From assembly GCA_019117305.1 (NCBI GenBank), contig DWZZ01000017.1, forward strand, positions 1 through 34,279: 34,279 nucleotides of DNA, given 5' to 3'. The position numbers were made by a program, and so were the translations under genes. The notes beneath the pieces were generated by a model. It did no database searches and had not been told where the DNA came from. It worked only from the letters and a program-made list of their open reading frames with translations. Shown one piece after another: positions 1 to 6,956 of the stretch. This DNA comes from Candidatus Mediterraneibacter merdigallinarum (GTDB lineage Bacteria > Bacillota > Clostridia > Lachnospirales > Lachnospiraceae). The number at the start of each line of letters is the position of its first letter. Position 1 is the stretch's first letter.

Positions 1-1151
1 GGCTGGCCCTTTATCCTACCACACGGGCGGACTTAAACGGATGCTTCTCCGGCAGCGCCATTGAAGAAGGCGGAAAGCTGTATCTGGTTTACACGGGGGT
101 ACGCTACGAAGTCGTCAATCCCGACGATCCCCACACCTGTCTCAACGAACAGTTCGAATCATCTCAGCTTATGATTTCCTCGGACGATGGTTTCCGGTTT
201 GACAATGAGCATGGGAAAGAAGTCATCATTCCTCCTGTCACTGATCCTTCCATCGGAGACCGCACCCACACGCGGGACCCGAAAATCTGGAGGGGGAAAG
301 ACGCCTGGTATCTGATCCTTGGAAGTACAATGGGTGAAAAATACGGCGAAGTCCTTTTCTACCGCAGCGAAGATCTTCATGCATGGACTTATGTAAATAA
401 GGCGTGGAAAGGACCGGAATACGGATGGATGTGGGAATGTCCGGATTATTTTGAGACAGAGGGCGGAGGTGTTCTGCTTCTGTCGGCCATGGGCTTTCTG
501 AAAAATGATGAAAAAGAGAAAAACCAGTCTCTCTGTTTTCCAGTGGCTTTTGATGAATCAGAATGCCGGCTGCAGATTCCGGATCAGTACCAGTATCTGG
601 ACTATGGCCTGGACCTGTACGCGCCCCAGACGGCCCTGGATAAAGACGGAAGAAGAATCATGACAGCCTGGCTGCGAATGCCGAAAGTAACCGCAGAAGG
701 ATGGATCGGCATGTTCTGTTCGCCCCGGGTGGTAGAACGAAAAGACAGACATATTTATTTCCGCATGCATCCGAATATCCGCAGTGCTTACTCCAGAATA
801 ATCCGGGATACCGCCGAGGCTTCCGAAGACGGCTACATGGCTGCTTTCGAGCTGGAAGACGGCGAAACAATCAATATCGGAGGATTTCTTATCACAAGAA
901 AAGGAAACCGGATCATCACTGACCGCACAAAAGTCTATCCCGCTAATGTTGAAGGCGCCCATCTGATTTCCGAAACGCCTGAAATCCGAGACGGCTTCCG
1001 GCTGGAAGTCCTGGTGGACTCCAATCTTATTGAAGTGTATATAAATGACGGTGAATATGTGATCAGCAATGCCGTCTATGACCTTGAGGATAAGATCAGC
1101 TGCAGTACGGATAAAGCCCTCCGGCTGTCCACAACAGGAAATAAAGAATAA
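1..1151 (+). CDS. Glycoside hydrolase family 32 (sucrose/fructan hydrolase), 5' end cut by window edge
   Basis: The reading frame is open from base 3 to the TAA at 1149-1151, giving about 382 residues of the C-terminal part. GH32 enzymes hydrolyse sucrose, sucrose-6-phosphate or fructans through a five-bladed propeller followed by a beta-sandwich. Visible family motifs are NGCFSGSA near the window start, RDPKIW (the RDP motif whose Asp stabilises the transition state) and WECPDYF (the EC motif whose Glu is the acid/base). The N-terminal WMNDPNG nucleophile motif lies upstream of the window. The tail after about residue 230 fits the beta-sandwich module. I see no signal peptide, but the N-terminus is missing. 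Whether the substrate is sucrose-6-phosphate or a fructan cannot be decided here; a cytoplasmic sucrose-6-P hydrolase is the usual role in this lineage. Confidence 0.9.
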   Translation, partial: LALYPTTRADLNGCFSGSAIEEGGKLYLVYTGVRYEVVNPDDPHTCLNEQFESSQLMISSDDGFRFDNEHGKEVIIPPVTDPSIGDRTHTRDPKIWRGKDAWYLILGSTMGEKYGEVLFYRSEDLHAWTYVNKAWKGPEYGWMWECPDYFETEGGGVLLLSAMGFLKNDEKEKNQSLCFPVAFDESECRLQIPDQYQYLDYGLDLYAPQTALDKDGRRIMTAWLRMPKVTAEGWIGMFCSPRVVERKDRHIYFRMHPNIRSAYSRIIRDTAEASEDGYMAAFELEDGETINIGGFLITRKGNRIITDRTKVYPANVEGAHLISETPEIRDGFRLEVLVDSNLIEVYINDGEYVISNAVYDLEDKISCSTDKALRLSTTGNKE

Positions 1152-1243: not shown

Positions 1244-3010
1244 ATGGAATGGACACCATTGCCGGTCGGAGTGGAAAATTTTGAGGAAATTATTACAAAA
1301 GGCTATTATTATGTTGACAAAACATTATTGATAAGAGATCTGATTGATCTGCGTGGAAAAGTTAACCTCTTCACCCGGCCGCGCCGTTTCGGCAAAACAC
1401 TGAATATGAGCATGCTCCGGTATTTTTTTGAAAAATCTCAGGAGGACCGTTCCCGTCTGTTTGCAGGAACAAAGATCATGGAAGCCGGCGAAAAATATCT
1501 GAAGGAATTCGGACAGTATCCTGTAATTTCGTTGTCCCTGAAATCTATGAAACAAGGGAGCTATGAATCAGCATTCCACTGTCTGAAAGAGGATATAGCG
1601 CGGGAATTCAAAAAACATCCGGAGATTTCCCAGAACCTGGACAGCAATGATGACCGCACAAAATATGATCTTTTGATGAACCGAAAAGCGGACGATGATG
1701 AATACCTGACGTCATTGAAATTCCTCTCCGAGTGTCTGTACGCTTTCTACGGAAGAAAGACGATCATCCTCATCGACGAATATGACGTTCCTCTGGAGAA
1801 TGCGTATTTCAGCGGTTTCTATGATAAGATGGTCCGTCTGATCCGCTCATTGTTCGAGTCTGCTCTCAAGACAAACGATGCCCTGGAATTTGCAGTAGTC
1901 ACAGGGTGTCTGCGCATAGACATGGATGCGCCATCGCCACTAGACTCGAAAGGACCTCGCCAAGTGGACGAGGCGGGCTTTCCTGCTAAGCTCGAAAAAA
2001 CCTCGCTAAGCAGTCAATGCCAATCGATCTTTACCGGATTGAATAACCTGAATATCATTTCAATCATGGATACAACTTATGCCGAGCACTTCGGTTTTAC
2101 TCAGAATGAAGTAGATGAGATGCTTGCGCACTATGGACTCGAGGGAAATCGAGACGCAGTCAGAACATGGTATGACGGATATCGGTTTGGCAGTACTGAG
2201 GTGTACAATCCGTGGAGCGTCATCAATTATGTAAATTCCTGCTATAACGACAAAAAAGCTCTGTTGAAACCCTACTGGTCCAATACCAGTTCCAACAGCA
2301 TTGTCCGCACTCTCGTGGAACGGGCAGATATCTCGGTAAAGCAGGAAATCGAAGCTCTGATCGAGGGAAAGACAATCACAAAACCGATTCACGAAGATAT
2401 TACTTACGACGATATGGACTCCACACAGGACAACCTCTGGAACTTCCTGTTCTTTACAGGTTATCTGAAGAAGATCAGCGAACGGCAGGACGGCGAGGAT
2501 ATCCTTGTCGAGATGGCGATACCGAACAGCGAAGTCCGTTACATTTATAAAAACACTGTACTGCGGTGGTTTGAGGAGAGGACAAAGGAAAAAGAGCTTT
2601 CCCCTCTCTATGAAAGTATCTTAAGCGGCAACTGCAATACTATGGCGCAGATCCTCTCCGACAATCTGATGGAAACAATCAGTTTTTATGACTATCAGGA
2701 GAGCTATTATCACGGTTTCCTTGCAGGGATGCTTAAAAATATCGGAAACTATATTGTACTCTCCAACCGGGAATCCGGGAACGGGCGTCCCGATATCCTG
2801 CTGAAATACCCGAGCGTCAGAGGGAAAGCTGTAATCATGGAGATCAAAATTGCCCGGACATATCAGGAACTGGAACGCAGATGTGATGAGGCGCTTAAGC
2901 AGATCGAAGACCAGAAGTATGAAGAAGCTCTGAGGCAGGAAGGCTATTCTGATATCCTGAAATATGGAATCGCATTTTACAGAAAGGAATGTATGGTAAA
3001 GCAGCCATGA
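1244..3010 (+). CDS. AAA-ATPase-like / PD-(D/E)XK nuclease-domain protein (PF09820 + PF08011 type)
   Basis: This 588-residue protein opens with the family signature PLPVGVENFEEI and has a P-loop-like RPRRFGKTLN at about residues 44-53 and a Walker B-like IILIDEYD at about 173-181. The C-terminus has GRPDILLK followed by VIMEIKI near residue 531, the D...ExK pattern of PD-(D/E)XK nucleases. Such proteins are multicopy in gut Clostridia and Bacteroidetes; their function is not established. The start at 1244 is chosen because GGAAGGGAGG lies 9 nt upstream; an in-frame TTG at 1184 lies at the hairpin base. The conserved CLRISKESIFTG segment is interrupted by about 35 residues (see 1919-2023), making the protein longer than usual. 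The stop overlaps the mazG start as ATGA. Confidence 0.85.
   Translation: MEWTPLPVGVENFEEIITKGYYYVDKTLLIRDLIDLRGKVNLFTRPRRFGKTLNMSMLRYFFEKSQEDRSRLFAGTKIMEAGEKYLKEFGQYPVISLSLKSMKQGSYESAFHCLKEDIAREFKKHPEISQNLDSNDDRTKYDLLMNRKADDDEYLTSLKFLSECLYAFYGRKTIILIDEYDVPLENAYFSGFYDKMVRLIRSLFESALKTNDALEFAVVTGCLRIDMDAPSPLDSKGPRQVDEAGFPAKLEKTSLSSQCQSIFTGLNNLNIISIMDTTYAEHFGFTQNEVDEMLAHYGLEGNRDAVRTWYDGYRFGSTEVYNPWSVINYVNSCYNDKKALLKPYWSNTSSNSIVRTLVERADISVKQEIEALIEGKTITKPIHEDITYDDMDSTQDNLWNFLFFTGYLKKISERQDGEDILVEMAIPNSEVRYIYKNTVLRWFEERTKEKELSPLYESILSGNCNTMAQILSDNLMETISFYDYQESYYHGFLAGMLKNIGNYIVLSNRESGNGRPDILLKYPSVRGKAVIMEIKIARTYQELERRCDEALKQIEDQKYEEALRQEGYSDILKYGIAFYRKECMVKQP
1919..2023 (+). repeat. In-frame ~100-bp insertion with imperfect internal direct repeat
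   Basis: In relatives the text runs CLRI-SKE-SIFTGLNN. Here CLRI and SIFTGLNN are separated by 35 codons with no stop. The inserted DNA holds two 20-nt direct repeats, 1945-1964 and 1991-2010, identical at 17 of 20 positions and 46 nt apart, plus a CCTCG...CGAGG inverted repeat between them. A 6-bp inverted repeat (GCGCAT 1912-1917, ATGCGC 1926-1931) sits at the left edge. Size, repeats and maintained frame resemble a small coding palindromic element. The family comparison is from memory, not an alignment. Confidence 0.6.
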
Positions 3011-3489
3011 CAAAGTTTGAAGAATTTGAAGAAGTAATCGCCCGTCTCCGGGCTCCGGACGGCTGTCCCTGGGATCGGGCCCAGACCCATATAAGCCTGA
3101 AAAAGCCTTGTATTGAGGAGGCCGCGGAAGTCATCTGCGGCATCAATATTCTGGAGCAGACCGGGGATCCCGACAATCTGAAAGAAGAGCTGGGCGACCT
3201 GCTCATGCAGGTAGTATTTCACGCGCAGATTGCCGAGGAGGAAGGTCTGTTTACCATGGACGATGTAATCCAGACCGTAATCGACAAAATGGTCCGCCGG
3301 CATCCCCATGTTTTCGGAGAAGCAACGGTTTCCGATACCGGCGAAATCCTGACGAAATGGGAAGACATCAAGAAGCAGGAAAAACAGGGAAAAGAGTGGG
3401 CAGACGAATATCTGCCCGGAGCCTTTGAGGAAGCGAAAGAACTGATCGAAGCGGCGAAAGAGCGGAAAGGGTTCAATAAACGTGAATAA
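3007..3489 (+). CDS. mazG: MazG-family nucleoside triphosphate pyrophosphohydrolase
   Basis: This 160-residue protein hydrolyses (d)NTPs to NMP and pyrophosphate, a housecleaning activity in the cytoplasm. The sequence shows the family opening RLRAPDGCPWDRAQTH, the metal-binding EEAAEV helix and EELGDLLMQVVFHAQ, and the conserved RRHPHVFGE and KWEDIKKQEK. E. coli MazG has about 263 residues and two domains; this is a one-domain form like many clostridial homologues. The ATG at 3007 gives an ATGA overlap with the upstream stop, so translation is probably coupled. An in-frame ATG at 2989 lacks a spaced ribosome site, and family members begin near FEEF. There is no toxin-antitoxin partner, so a MazEF link is not implied. 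Confidence 0.93.
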   Translation: MTKFEEFEEVIARLRAPDGCPWDRAQTHISLKKPCIEEAAEVICGINILEQTGDPDNLKEELGDLLMQVVFHAQIAEEEGLFTMDDVIQTVIDKMVRRHPHVFGEATVSDTGEILTKWEDIKKQEKQGKEWADEYLPGAFEEAKELIEAAKERKGFNKRE

Positions 3490-3505: not shown

Positions 3506-4234
3506 CTACAGCACTCCGAATAATGTCCCCAGGTCGCCGTCATCCAGCACCCGGCTGCTTTTTCTGTCCATATTCGCAAGCAAGGCTTCCACACGATTTT
3601 CAAGGGCAACGTCAATAAATCTCCCCACATCAATTCCCCGCAGCTCAAAAAACAGGAGCGGATTTTCATCAAGCCTTGCGCCCACGCCGTACAGGGCTGC
3701 GGCAACATGCTTGCACATCAGAGCCCAGTCCGGACAGCTGCAGTTAAAGCTGATCTCTCTCGGTTCTGGAAACAATCCTCCTTTTCCCTGAAAAAGCTCC
3801 TTCATTTCATCCGGAAAATCCCCTCCAAGCAGCGCCTCCAGATTTTCCAGTTTCTTTCCGCATCTTGAAAGGATATCCTGACACTTTTCCTCAGACAGCG
3901 GACTGATCCGTATCTCGACTTTATATGGGGTCTTACGGGTCCCCTGCACTCTTGCAAGGATTTTTCCCTTCTGGATCTTCAGATCTATAACTGAGCCGTT
4001 CCGCACATATCTCTTTCCTCTGCCCAGACGGCTCTCATAATCTGCGTATCGTTCCAGATTGTCGCACCACGCCTTTCCCCACCATGTCTTCGCAATATTT
4101 CTCCCCTGAACCTGGACAGGCTCAAGGATCTTTCCTCTGCTCTGGGCCTTCTTTTTGCTGGCGTCGGATTTTCTTCGAAGTTCTCCTGCATCCGGCTGTT
4201 CATATCGTGGAAATTCATTCCAATACCTGCTCAT
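3506..4234 (-). CDS. SWIM zinc-finger protein
   Basis: This 242-residue protein has a SWIM motif, CxC followed by CxH, in NCSCPDWALMCKHVAAALYG at about residues 163-182. Bacterial SWIM proteins are repeatedly encoded next to SNF2 helicases and are thought to act with them on DNA or DNA-bound complexes; the exact role is unknown. A basic, tryptophan-rich stretch (KTWWGKAWCDNLE) at about 48-60 is typical of this family. The start at 4234 has GGAGGA about 9 nt upstream. The gene follows the SNF2 gene by 55 nt on the same strand and is probably co-transcribed with it. It converges with mazG, leaving a 16-nt gap with no clear terminator. Confidence 0.88.
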   Translation of the reverse strand: MSRYWNEFPRYEQPDAGELRRKSDASKKKAQSRGKILEPVQVQGRNIAKTWWGKAWCDNLERYADYESRLGRGKRYVRNGSVIDLKIQKGKILARVQGTRKTPYKVEIRISPLSEEKCQDILSRCGKKLENLEALLGGDFPDEMKELFQGKGGLFPEPREISFNCSCPDWALMCKHVAAALYGVGARLDENPLLFFELRGIDVGRFIDVALENRVEALLANMDRKSSRVLDDGDLGTLFGVL

Positions 4235-4289: not shown

Positions 4290-6893
4290 CTATCTGCGTT
4301 CCAGCCGCAGCAGTGACATAAGCTCCTCGTTTCCAAGCTCAGTAATCCATTTTTCTCCGCCGGAGCCGATCACATTTTCCGCAAGCTCCTTTTTCGACTC
4401 TATAAGCGCGTTGATCTTTTCCTCTATCGTCCCTCTGCACGCCAGCTTATGCACCATAACATTCTTTGTCTGTCCGATTCTGAAGGCACGGTCTGTAGCC
4501 TGATTTTCTACGGCAGGATTCCACCACCGGTCAAAATGAATTACATGATTTGCTTTCGTCAGATTCAGTCCTGTTCCTCCCGCCTTCACTGACAAGACAA
4601 TAAATGGGACATATGAATCTCCCTGAAATGCATCCACAATCTCTCCTCGATTTGCTACCGGAGTGCCGCCGTGGAGCACATATCCGTCCGCATGGAAGAT
4701 TTCTTTTAAGAAAGAGGCGAGATATTCCGTGATCTCCCTGAACTGCGTGAACACGAGCACACGCTCTCGTTTTTCATAAATTGTCTCACACAGAGATTTC
4801 AGCATCTGAAACTTCCCGCTGTCCGCCTCTGAAAATGCCTGCTGCCCCAGATACTGATCCGGATGGTTGCAGATCTGTTTCAGCTTCATAAGAACCGCGA
4901 GAACAAGCCCTCTTCTTTCTATTCCGTCTGAATTCAGAATTCTGTCTTCCATATCGGCGACAACCTTTCGGTAGAGAACAACCTGCTTTTTCGACATTTC
5001 TACATAATCAACCGTCTCAAGCTTCTCCGGAAGATCAGCTATAATACGTTTGTCTGTCTTTACTCTGCGCAGCATAAAGGGCGCCACCATCGATTTAAGG
5101 CGCGCATACTGCTCCGGATGCACGCTGAGCCCTTTCATAAACTCCCTGAATTCTTTTGATGTGCCCAGAAGGCCTTTGTCCAGGAAATCAAACAAAGACC
5201 ACAGATTTGACAGATCGTTTTCAATCGGGGTACCTGTCATAGCAATCTTCATGCGGCTTTTAATCAGCTTTACTGCTTTGGTCTGATTTGTCAGGGGATT
5301 TTTGATCGCCTGCGCCTCATCAAGTATCACACATTCCCACTGAATGTCCCGAAGCTCTTTTATTCTTGCGGCCATCCCGTAAGTGGTGACCGTAAGAAAC
5401 GCAGACTCTTCCTTTACCTCCTGCCCCAATACAGCTGCGCCTCTGCCATGAAGAATCCTGATATCCATCCGCGGCACAAATTTTTCCGCTTCTTTTTCCC
5501 AGTTTCCGAGAAGTGACGCCGGAACGATAAGCAGTACCCGGGCATCCTTTTTCGTTTTTCTCATACGCTCCAGATATGCGAGCACCTGAAGAGTCTTTCC
5601 GAGTCCCATATCATCGGCCAGGCATGCTCCGAACCCCAGCCGGTCCATATAATTAAGCCAGATATATCCGTCCTTCTGATATGGCCGCAGCTCCGCATGT
5701 ACAGTAGACGGAACTTTTATCCTGCGGATTTTCCCCGGATCTCTTAAATTTCTCAGAAGTCCGGAAAGCCATTTCCCGTTTGTGACAAGAGGGCTCACAT
5801 CAGCATTTTTATCCTGACTGCCCATATTCATGCGCAGGGCATCCATCAAAGTAATTTCGCCGTGGTTTTCCTCCATCTGCTTCAGCAGCTTTCTCAGCCG
5901 TTCATGATCGACTTCCACCCATTTCCCTTTCAGAAAAGCCAGTCCTTCCGTCTCTGACAAAAGCCTTTGGATATCTGCCTGAGTCAGCGGTATTCCGTCA
6001 ACTACCAGCCTGGGCTGCATTGAAACGATGCTGTCGAATCCCAGTACGGACGGCCTGTCCTCTCCCAGGCTTACCGACATGGAAACTACCGACGCGCGCT
6101 TTCTCCACCAGTTCGGTATTCTGCACAGAATACCTGTCTTTTCTATATCTTCTATCTGCCGCAAAAATGTGTATGCCTCCTGCGTCGTCAATCGCAGAGG
6201 ATGGAACAGTTCTCCCGATTCCATAAATCCGGCAATCAGTCCCGACACCTCGGCAGCTTTATTCAGACAGGATAAATGTTCAAGCAATTTATCTCTTTTC
6301 CCTTTATATTCAGTCAATGCATACCGCAGCGGAACATGATGTACTTTTCCGTCATCGCTTTTTGTCGCATAAGTCGCAAGAAAAGCAAACGGAAAGTCGG
6401 CATCGTCCTTATTCTCCACCAGATGGAAGAAAATGCGCTCCGGCACATGGAGATTCTGATTTTTTTCTGTCAGATACAGTTCTACTGTGCCGCTGTAGCC
6501 TGCAATCTCTCTGCGGAATATCCGGGTCAGCCCCTCAAATATATTTCTGATCCATCCTTCTGTTATATATTCTGCTCCGATAGCAAAAGGAACACTTAAC
6601 AGCAATTCTTCACACATTTCTTCAGGAACCGGCACCTGCACCTGTTCCCGCGCAAGTTCCAGTTCCGGAAGTTCAGTGAGCTGACGGAAAAATGCCGCCG
6701 CCGTTTGATAGAGGAAGCGGACGGACTGCGTCATTTCTTTCGGAGCAGTTTTCAGCCCTGTATCATAAAGAGCGGGCAGTCCGCTTTCCTTCGTCCATCT
6801 TGTAATATCTTCCTGTTTCCATCCTCCGGCCGCTTCAGATATATCCGGGCGGAAACCGTCCGGCGTAAATATAAATGATAGATTTTTATCCAT
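4290..6893 (-). CDS. SNF2-family DEAD/H helicase-like ATPase
   Basis: This protein of about 867 residues has an N-terminal bacterial SNF2-associated region and a C-terminal SNF2 ATPase. Motifs in order: LRPYQKDGYIWL, DDMGLGKT (motif I, about residue 428), DEAQAIKN (motif II, about 526), MTGTPIEN (motif III), VLVFTQF, LSVKAGGTGLNLT and DRWWNPAVENQATDRAFRIGQ (motifs V and VI). Such enzymes translocate on DNA and remodel protein-DNA complexes. Start choice: a TTG at 6956 is part of the -35 box of the promoter at 6928-6956 and so is excluded. The ATG at 6914 would have a leader of about 7 nt. The ATG at 6893 has AGGA 10 nt upstream and is preferred. The SWIM gene follows. Confidence 0.9.
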   Translation of the reverse strand: MDKNLSFIFTPDGFRPDISEAAGGWKQEDITRWTKESGLPALYDTGLKTAPKEMTQSVRFLYQTAAAFFRQLTELPELELAREQVQVPVPEEMCEELLLSVPFAIGAEYITEGWIRNIFEGLTRIFRREIAGYSGTVELYLTEKNQNLHVPERIFFHLVENKDDADFPFAFLATYATKSDDGKVHHVPLRYALTEYKGKRDKLLEHLSCLNKAAEVSGLIAGFMESGELFHPLRLTTQEAYTFLRQIEDIEKTGILCRIPNWWRKRASVVSMSVSLGEDRPSVLGFDSIVSMQPRLVVDGIPLTQADIQRLLSETEGLAFLKGKWVEVDHERLRKLLKQMEENHGEITLMDALRMNMGSQDKNADVSPLVTNGKWLSGLLRNLRDPGKIRRIKVPSTVHAELRPYQKDGYIWLNYMDRLGFGACLADDMGLGKTLQVLAYLERMRKTKKDARVLLIVPASLLGNWEKEAEKFVPRMDIRILHGRGAAVLGQEVKEESAFLTVTTYGMAARIKELRDIQWECVILDEAQAIKNPLTNQTKAVKLIKSRMKIAMTGTPIENDLSNLWSLFDFLDKGLLGTSKEFREFMKGLSVHPEQYARLKSMVAPFMLRRVKTDKRIIADLPEKLETVDYVEMSKKQVVLYRKVVADMEDRILNSDGIERRGLVLAVLMKLKQICNHPDQYLGQQAFSEADSGKFQMLKSLCETIYEKRERVLVFTQFREITEYLASFLKEIFHADGYVLHGGTPVANRGEIVDAFQGDSYVPFIVLSVKAGGTGLNLTKANHVIHFDRWWNPAVENQATDRAFRIGQTKNVMVHKLACRGTIEEKINALIESKKELAENVIGSGGEKWITELGNEELMSLLRLERR

Positions 6894-6927
6894 ATAACTG
6901 TCATCCTGTTCCATATATGATGAAACT

Positions 6928-6956
6928 ATTATACTAAAGACTCCGTAGTTTCTCAA
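6928..6956 (-). promoter_or_regulatory. Sigma-A-type promoter for the SNF2-SWIM pair
   Basis: TTGAGA (6956-6951), a 17-nt spacer and TATAAT (6933-6928) on the minus strand. The -35 box overlaps the glgB stop codon (6955-6953). The predicted start of transcription is near 6921. It lets the SNF2-SWIM pair be transcribed independently of glgB. Confidence 0.75.

Follow-up and report, generated by a model that had tools for sequence, protein, structure and literature searches.

A dispersed two-hairpin element, probably mobile, occurs in frame at one codon of PF09820 nuclease/ATPase genes in Lachnospiraceae

Introduction

How does a repeat-bearing stretch of about a hundred base pairs come to lie, with the reading frame left open, inside a gene of Candidatus Mediterraneibacter merdigallinarum? 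Rickettsia provides the best-known examples of mobile palindromic elements lying in frame, and the first-pass annotation of this locus, a 34,279-nt contig that we call the window, proposed such an element, with a lineage-specific protein loop as the alternative. Rickettsia palindromic elements (RPE) are described as palindromic, about 105-150 bp long, and present both between genes and in frame within protein genes (PMC2229807, PMC10969869). In-frame occurrence within genes is also reported for ERIC/RU repeats (PMC10969869, PMC2229807), and a 2024 review calls a similar mechanism in other prokaryotes conceivable (PMC10969869). Here we argue that the insert represents one copy of a two-hairpin, non-autonomous mobile element of about 100 bp, one lineage of which behaves in a homing-like manner at a site in PF09820/PDDEXK_9 genes, a reading to which we assign a probability of roughly 0.7.

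Results

The insert and its host gene

The interrupted gene encodes a protein with domain matches to PF09820 (residues 8-229) and to the PDDEXK_9 nuclease PF08011 (residues 486-588); it has no sequence match among solved structures at E 0.01. The features on which the analysis turns are the following.

1244-3010, + strand: host gene, PF09820 AAA-ATPase-like plus PF08011 PDDEXK_9 nuclease; start ATG at 1244 by reading
1262-1927, + strand: PF09820 domain match, stopping at 1927, the edge of the insert
1919-1927, + strand: GAC ATG GAT, where close empty homologues have codons for S-K-E (alignment with L091, L086 and L088)
1928-2023, + strand: inserted element, 96 nt net (alignment; match to model R1), reading APSPLDSKGPRQVDEAGFPAKLEKTSLSSQCQ
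1929-1975, + strand: hairpin 1, stems 1929-1936/1969-1975 and 1939-1945/1959-1965, with an A.A mismatch (covariation)
1940-1964, + strand: box 1 of the direct repeat, CTAGACTCGAAAGGACCTCGCCAAG
1976-2021, + strand: outer stem around hairpin 2, GGC at 1976-1978 with GCC at 2019-2021 (covariation)
1983-2013, + strand: hairpin 2 (covariation)
1986-2010, + strand: box 2 of the direct repeat, CTAAGCTCGAAAAAACCTCGCTAAG
2024-2047, + strand: S-I-F-T-G-L-N-N codons, 3' of the insert (alignment with homologues)
2696-3004, + strand: PDDEXK_9 nuclease domain (domain match)

The window protein has C-LRIDMD-APSPL...SSQCQ-SIFTGLNN in place of the C-LRISKE-SIFTGLNN found in close homologues, so that 38 residues instead of six separate the C from SIF, a net gain of 32 codons (96 nt) in frame. 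The repeat-bearing, in-frame insertion that the first-pass annotation placed at 1919-2023 is therefore real, and its estimate of 35 codons was close. It had placed the insertion in the ATPase domain, just before a highly conserved motif; the PF09820 match breaks off at the insert, and SIFTGLNN follows. The direct repeat with a spacing of 46 nt that it had noticed consists of the two boxes, which agree at 20 of 25 positions; the box pattern, with up to three mismatches, matches these two places and no others in the window, and nothing at all in 100 dinucleotide shuffles.

The four neighbours covered are a GH32 enzyme (window 3-1151), MazG (2989-3489), a SWIM zinc finger protein (3506-4234, a match at the cut-off) and an SNF2 helicase (4290-6956), and nothing mobile is among them. 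Over the 58 genomes of the genus PF09820 has 254 matches; the family is absent from 15 of these genomes and reaches 34 matches in a single one (G034), a strong expansion.

Two tandem hairpins

An inverted repeat inside the insert had also been claimed; there is one, in the form of two tandem imperfect hairpins rather than a single one. Both contain a fixed A.A mismatch, and an additional stem of three pairs surrounds the second. Taken by itself, window 1905-2040 folds with no unusual stability (z -1.28), so the claim of a structure rests on covariation. Across 21 full elements RNAalifold finds 22 pairs, 15 of them with compensating changes on both sides. In a defined structure of 24 pairs, examined in the same elements, 91.9% of cells are paired, compared with 74.0% for shuffles and 26-43% for slid versions, and its covariation score is 0.527 against 0.200 in shuffles. 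Sixteen of its pairs, among them all three of the outer stem, show two-sided changes, a number reached by 15 of 500 shuffles; further pair types, 28 against 31.8 in shuffles of these 21 elements, are not above chance.

Which strand would fold is less sure. Predicted folding favours the complement strand in 109 of 112 elements for RNA and in 99 of 112 for DNA. An A.C mismatch on one strand is a G.U pair on the complement. The pair cells, which are not independent of one another, comprise 2157 Watson-Crick, 48 G.U and 54 A.C in 102 unique elements, and 1313, 50 and 30, respectively, in 89 further elements. In the box stems A.C exceeds G.U (32 to 11 and 13 to 5, by manual tally), whereas in the remaining stems G.U exceeds A.C (37 to 22 and 45 to 17). 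The strand evidence from mismatches is thus mixed.

A family dispersed over Lachnospiraceae

The search of the host genome and its relatives that the first-pass annotation had recommended gave a divided answer. In the genome itself the insert is the sole match at E 1e-3, and a covariance model adds one divergent copy (G000:C158:1335-1452, L270), so that dispersal is visible across the genus and the family, not within this genome. The divergent copy apparently lies in a pgk-tpiA spacer by reading, a position to which L030 and L223 seem to correspond in other genomes.

Beyond this genome, a 116-nt query is matched in 68 of 99 genomes (its own included) at a loose E of 1. The box pattern with up to two mismatches occurs in 53 of the 58 genus genomes, against none in any of the 58 for the reversed-pattern control, and covariance model R1, which matches window 1919-2024 at 109.7 bits, has 293 matches in 54 of these 58 genomes, which we take to be Mediterraneibacter. 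A scan of named genomes returned at least 120 matching stretches; among the 80 listed, 46 are labelled Lachnospiraceae, 23 name genera or species that we place in that family (among others Butyrivibrio, Acetatifactor, Robinsoniella, Mediterraneibacter and Hungatella), and 11 carry vaguer labels (bacterium, Clostridium, Clostridiales), including one labelled Bacteroides. The element family is widespread in Lachnospiraceae. It has no match in Rfam or in phage and plasmid collections at the settings used, nor in viral contigs, where the exact box pattern alone was searched, and a narrow search of open-licence papers found no description of it.

The settings of individual copies are varied. By our reading of the genes, the rplW-rplB spacer (L019, L020, L022, L023) and the rpsH-rplF spacer (L012, L222, L224, L216) carry elements in several genomes, and other copies lie within apparent T-box leaders, ahead of antiterminator-like sequence (L009, L010, L013, L021); in the rpsH region they occur in both orientations (L007, L011). 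Rfam hits place one copy between 16S and 5S rRNA genes (L017:1493-1597). Five 99-bp units form a head-to-tail tandem array in G448 (L219:1211-1677), with a shorter array in L216, and in L134, L146, L150, L163 and L165 pairs of boxes face each other about 0.5-2 kb apart.

Evidence of mobility

One genome, G474, holds 62 element matches. Near-identical elements were compared across 40 stretches, and none of their 80 flanks (up to 200 nt each) matches the flank of another stretch at E 1e-4. The 60 nt 3' of the element fold below -8 kcal/mol in 39 of the 40 (mean z -5.9), while the 5' side has a stable hairpin in 12 of 40 (z -0.4); viewed on the complement strand, the copy comes after a terminator-like hairpin and a T-rich stretch. 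Unrelated flanks around near-identical copies, with a terminator-like hairpin beside 39 of 40, lead us to conclude that the family is mobile. The preference for one side of a hairpin is weak among Mediterraneibacter copies (3' hairpin in 37 of 53, 5' hairpin in 32 of 53) and is not seen in G146 (1 of 8), which makes it a property of a lineage and not of the family. The hairpin beside the PF09820 site is moderately stable, with a mean percentile of 0.24 in the nine genes that carry an insert against 0.51 in 78 empty homologues, a modest effect in a comparison made post hoc, after the G474 pattern had been seen.

Could the dispersed copies instead be a cis-acting RNA or a protein-binding site, kept in place by selection and not mobile? 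The strong covariation, the better folding of the complement as RNA and as DNA and the copies in ribosomal-protein spacers and T-box leaders would all suit such a site; near-identical copies in unrelated flanks in G474, the tandem arrays and the location within coding sequence speak against it, as do the mixed mismatch tallies. We consider this explanation improbable, although mobility would not preclude a function.

The position behind terminator-like hairpins also brings to mind a retroelement that inserts by reverse transcription, since group IIC introns insert after a hairpin and a T-rich stretch, just as the G474 copies do on the complement strand. However, none of the four candidates scored in G474 is a match to the reverse transcriptase family PF00078 at E 1e-3, and the element has no match to intron domains in Rfam; we regard a group IIC-like origin as very improbable and a reverse transcriptase as an unlikely mobiliser.

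A mobile element remains the reading that we prefer. Like a MITE, the family is short, without a transposase gene, dispersed and mobile. By eye, no inverted repeat joining the ends of the element was seen, the two hairpins standing in direct order, nor any target site duplication at the copies viewed in G474 and at PF09820 sites.

One codon of one gene family

Nine PF09820 genes are known to carry the insert: the window gene, four genes of G042, and one each in G049, G005, G162 and G467. This is a minimum number, at most eight or at most two candidates per genome having been scored, and the searches that found these genes worked at the DNA level and were blind to frame. The filled genes of G162 and G467 belong to another genus, four genomes of which yielded no further filled gene. 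Within the window's genus 7 of the 254 PF09820 matches are known to carry the insert, so empty sites are common. Both a unit of about 100 bp in unrelated intergenic places and empty sites, the two observations that the first-pass annotation had named as a check of its proposal, were accordingly found.

All nine inserts lie before S-[IV]-F codons and all nine are in frame, with net lengths of +81, +90, +93 or +96, each a multiple of 3. The 3' junction falls directly before the S codon in eight; the ninth keeps an extra E codon. For several inserts a close empty counterpart exists: L236 (filled) and L434 (empty) are 98.7% identical over 1287 nt, and the filled/empty pairs L232/L426, L234/L416 and L231/L427 share 94.5%, 92.7% and 89.0% nucleotide identity. 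The nearest empty relatives of the window gene have 83.5-83.7% protein identity to it. Filled genes of other subfamilies have only 36-62% protein identity to the window protein, and three filled proteins of G042 show 58-65% among themselves.

Immediately 5' of the insert, all nine show a change in the conserved R-[IV]-[SA]-[KR]-E segment. L236, L234 and L232 lack 15-18 nt that in close empty genes encode RVSKE, RVAKE or TRVSKE, while the R-I codons are kept in L231, L238 and the window gene, with different codons following in L231 and the window gene. The DNA of the site varies by subfamily, the serine being encoded by TCN or AGY, which sits oddly with sequence-specific insertion.

How general is a coding location? 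Among 180 element matches of at least 60 nt, a set with some places entered more than once, 11 fall within long open frames. Nine of these are PF09820 genes; the other two frames, L226 and L026, by reading cross non-coding DNA or lie antisense to ribosomal-protein genes. The same element thus occurs both between genes and in frame within genes, as proposed on the model of RPE; the parts of that proposal concerning intergenic copies, empty sites, palindromic structure and coding location hold, but the coding copies found occupy one codon of one gene family and not many unrelated genes.

Gene tree against element tree

A quick tree built from 88 proteins after removal of the insert requires nine gains for the nine inserts, forced by well-supported branches (shuffled labels require 8.7), and a single clade of the nine filled genes is rejected at p 3e-71; L237 and L238 are long branches of unsure placement in this tree. 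On a tree of 112 elements, by contrast, the nine inserts form one group, with one change against 8.8 in shuffles, a group whose support of 72 is not significant and which rests on few columns. It is this combination, inserts in one group and host genes scattered, that constitutes the homing pattern.

A vertically inherited, lineage-specific loop would explain why nine copies sit at one site and all in frame. It is contradicted by the nine separate gains on the gene tree and by the dispersed copies in intergenic DNA, and the structure is conserved while the peptide is not evidently so; this alternative of the first-pass annotation we practically discard. Pairwise codon differences among the nine inserts amount to 211 non-synonymous and 67 synonymous (74, 142 and 89 by codon position), a ratio that, on informal comparison, is about what would be expected without selection on the peptide, and in at least two of their stem pairs both partners have changed in concert (columns 10/32 and 54/80). 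A readable frame is common in the family, given that the + frame is open in 51 of 95 other elements.

A more serious alternative posits one or a few original insertions in PF09820 genes followed by short-tract recombination (gene conversion) among paralogues and horizontally acquired alleles, without further transposition. The single group on the element tree fits this too, and there are traces at the junctions, where L236 differs from the 98.7% identical L434 at two of the first 9 nt of the 3' flank and L231 carries three such differences. Recombination between DUF1703 paralogues is reported in Cardinium (PMC6387759). Yet over eight pairs divergence rises only slightly at the junction: the first 9 nt of the 3' flank have 0.139, compared with 0.060-0.135 at greater distance, and those of the 5' flank 0.111, compared with 0.048-0.125, so the tracts would have to be hardly longer than the element itself; moreover, low protein identities (36-62%; 58-65%) set filled genes of different subfamilies well apart. 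We take gene conversion to be a real possibility that, on balance, we doubt.

Candidates for a mobilising enzyme

If the element is mobilised in trans, what enzyme might be responsible? We examined 28 of 44 PF01797 (Y1 transposase) matches, in 15 genomes, and 27 of these 28 loci have no element in the stretch; in the exception an element lies about 0.5 kb from a Y1 frame that has a stop. For G474, 4 of 11 Y1 matches were covered. In four of eight Y1 loci read upstream (L311, L336, L313 and L337, of which two are in G044 and the others in G474 and G013) a terminator-like hairpin with a T-rich stretch stands just before the IS200-like element, and in the other four it does not; it is this position that makes the Y1 transposase a candidate. 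The loci examined hold no autonomous element with matching hairpins, and a search for a gene recurring beside the elements, over 80 named loci and using the first 80 residues, gave four clusters of three loci each, none of them mobiliser-like. An IS200-group Y1 enzyme acting on single-stranded DNA hairpins is the best candidate, albeit a weak and rather unlikely one.

Discussion

The scenario that we favor for the window gene can be formulated as follows. A single lineage of the element would have become tied to the site directly before the S-I-F codons, passing from gene to gene; it would move as DNA, mobilised in trans, for instance by a Y1 transposase acting on single-stranded DNA hairpins. 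Because the frame stays open, the ribosome should read through the insert, which would be translated as about 32 extra residues, and the function of the ATPase may be reduced through the change of the R-[IV]-[SA]-[KR]-E segment. The overall pattern looks like homing by an unspliced element. A bolder version of this scenario, which we advance tentatively and at somewhat less than even odds, is that we are dealing with a new type of homing element, a double-hairpin DNA parasite of about 100 bp that has no gene of its own, is removed neither by splicing nor from the protein, colonises one codon of one nuclease/ATPase family across genes and genera, survives because it can be read in frame, and changes a conserved stretch of the host protein.

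None of the systems compared here accommodates all these features. RPE are alike in being palindromic and both intergenic and in frame within coding sequences; they enter many unrelated genes, whereas the nine coding copies found here share one family and one codon, and the present element, set against RPE by description, has two hairpins in direct order and a Lachnospiraceae host. The enterobacterial ERIC/RU and the pneumococcal BOX/RUP/SPRITE repeats are likewise small, non-autonomous, intergenic stem-loop repeats (PMC2759123), but the present family has no terminal inverted repeats by eye and includes a lineage tied to one coding site. The likeness to RPE and ERIC is drawn from published descriptions. 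Systems of REP and RAYT (Y1) share the imperfect hairpins and the many intergenic copies (PMC3733652). In them the Y1 (PF01797) gene is flanked by the repeats, unlike what we see at 27 of the 28 Y1 loci examined. A further parallel lies in miniature derivatives of IS200/IS605. The ends of these insertion sequences are two near-identical imperfect hairpins in direct order, and the imperfect subterminal hairpins expected at both ends of a derivative are present in our element. On the other side, an autonomous partner with matching ends was not found in the loci examined, and the loss of 15-18 nt of target at three PF09820 sites is untypical of IS200-type insertion.

What, then, would the case of this insert mean? 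It adds an in-frame palindromic element from Lachnospiraceae, a major gut family. If the proposed reading is correct, nine separate entries at the same codon within a single gene family would amount to a site-specific, unspliced, coding mobile element, of which, within a narrow literature search, we know no equivalent. The process is testable because near-identical empty and filled genes exist. The element family can also serve as a marker for comparing Lachnospiraceae genomes and as a route to finding the enzyme that mobilises it.
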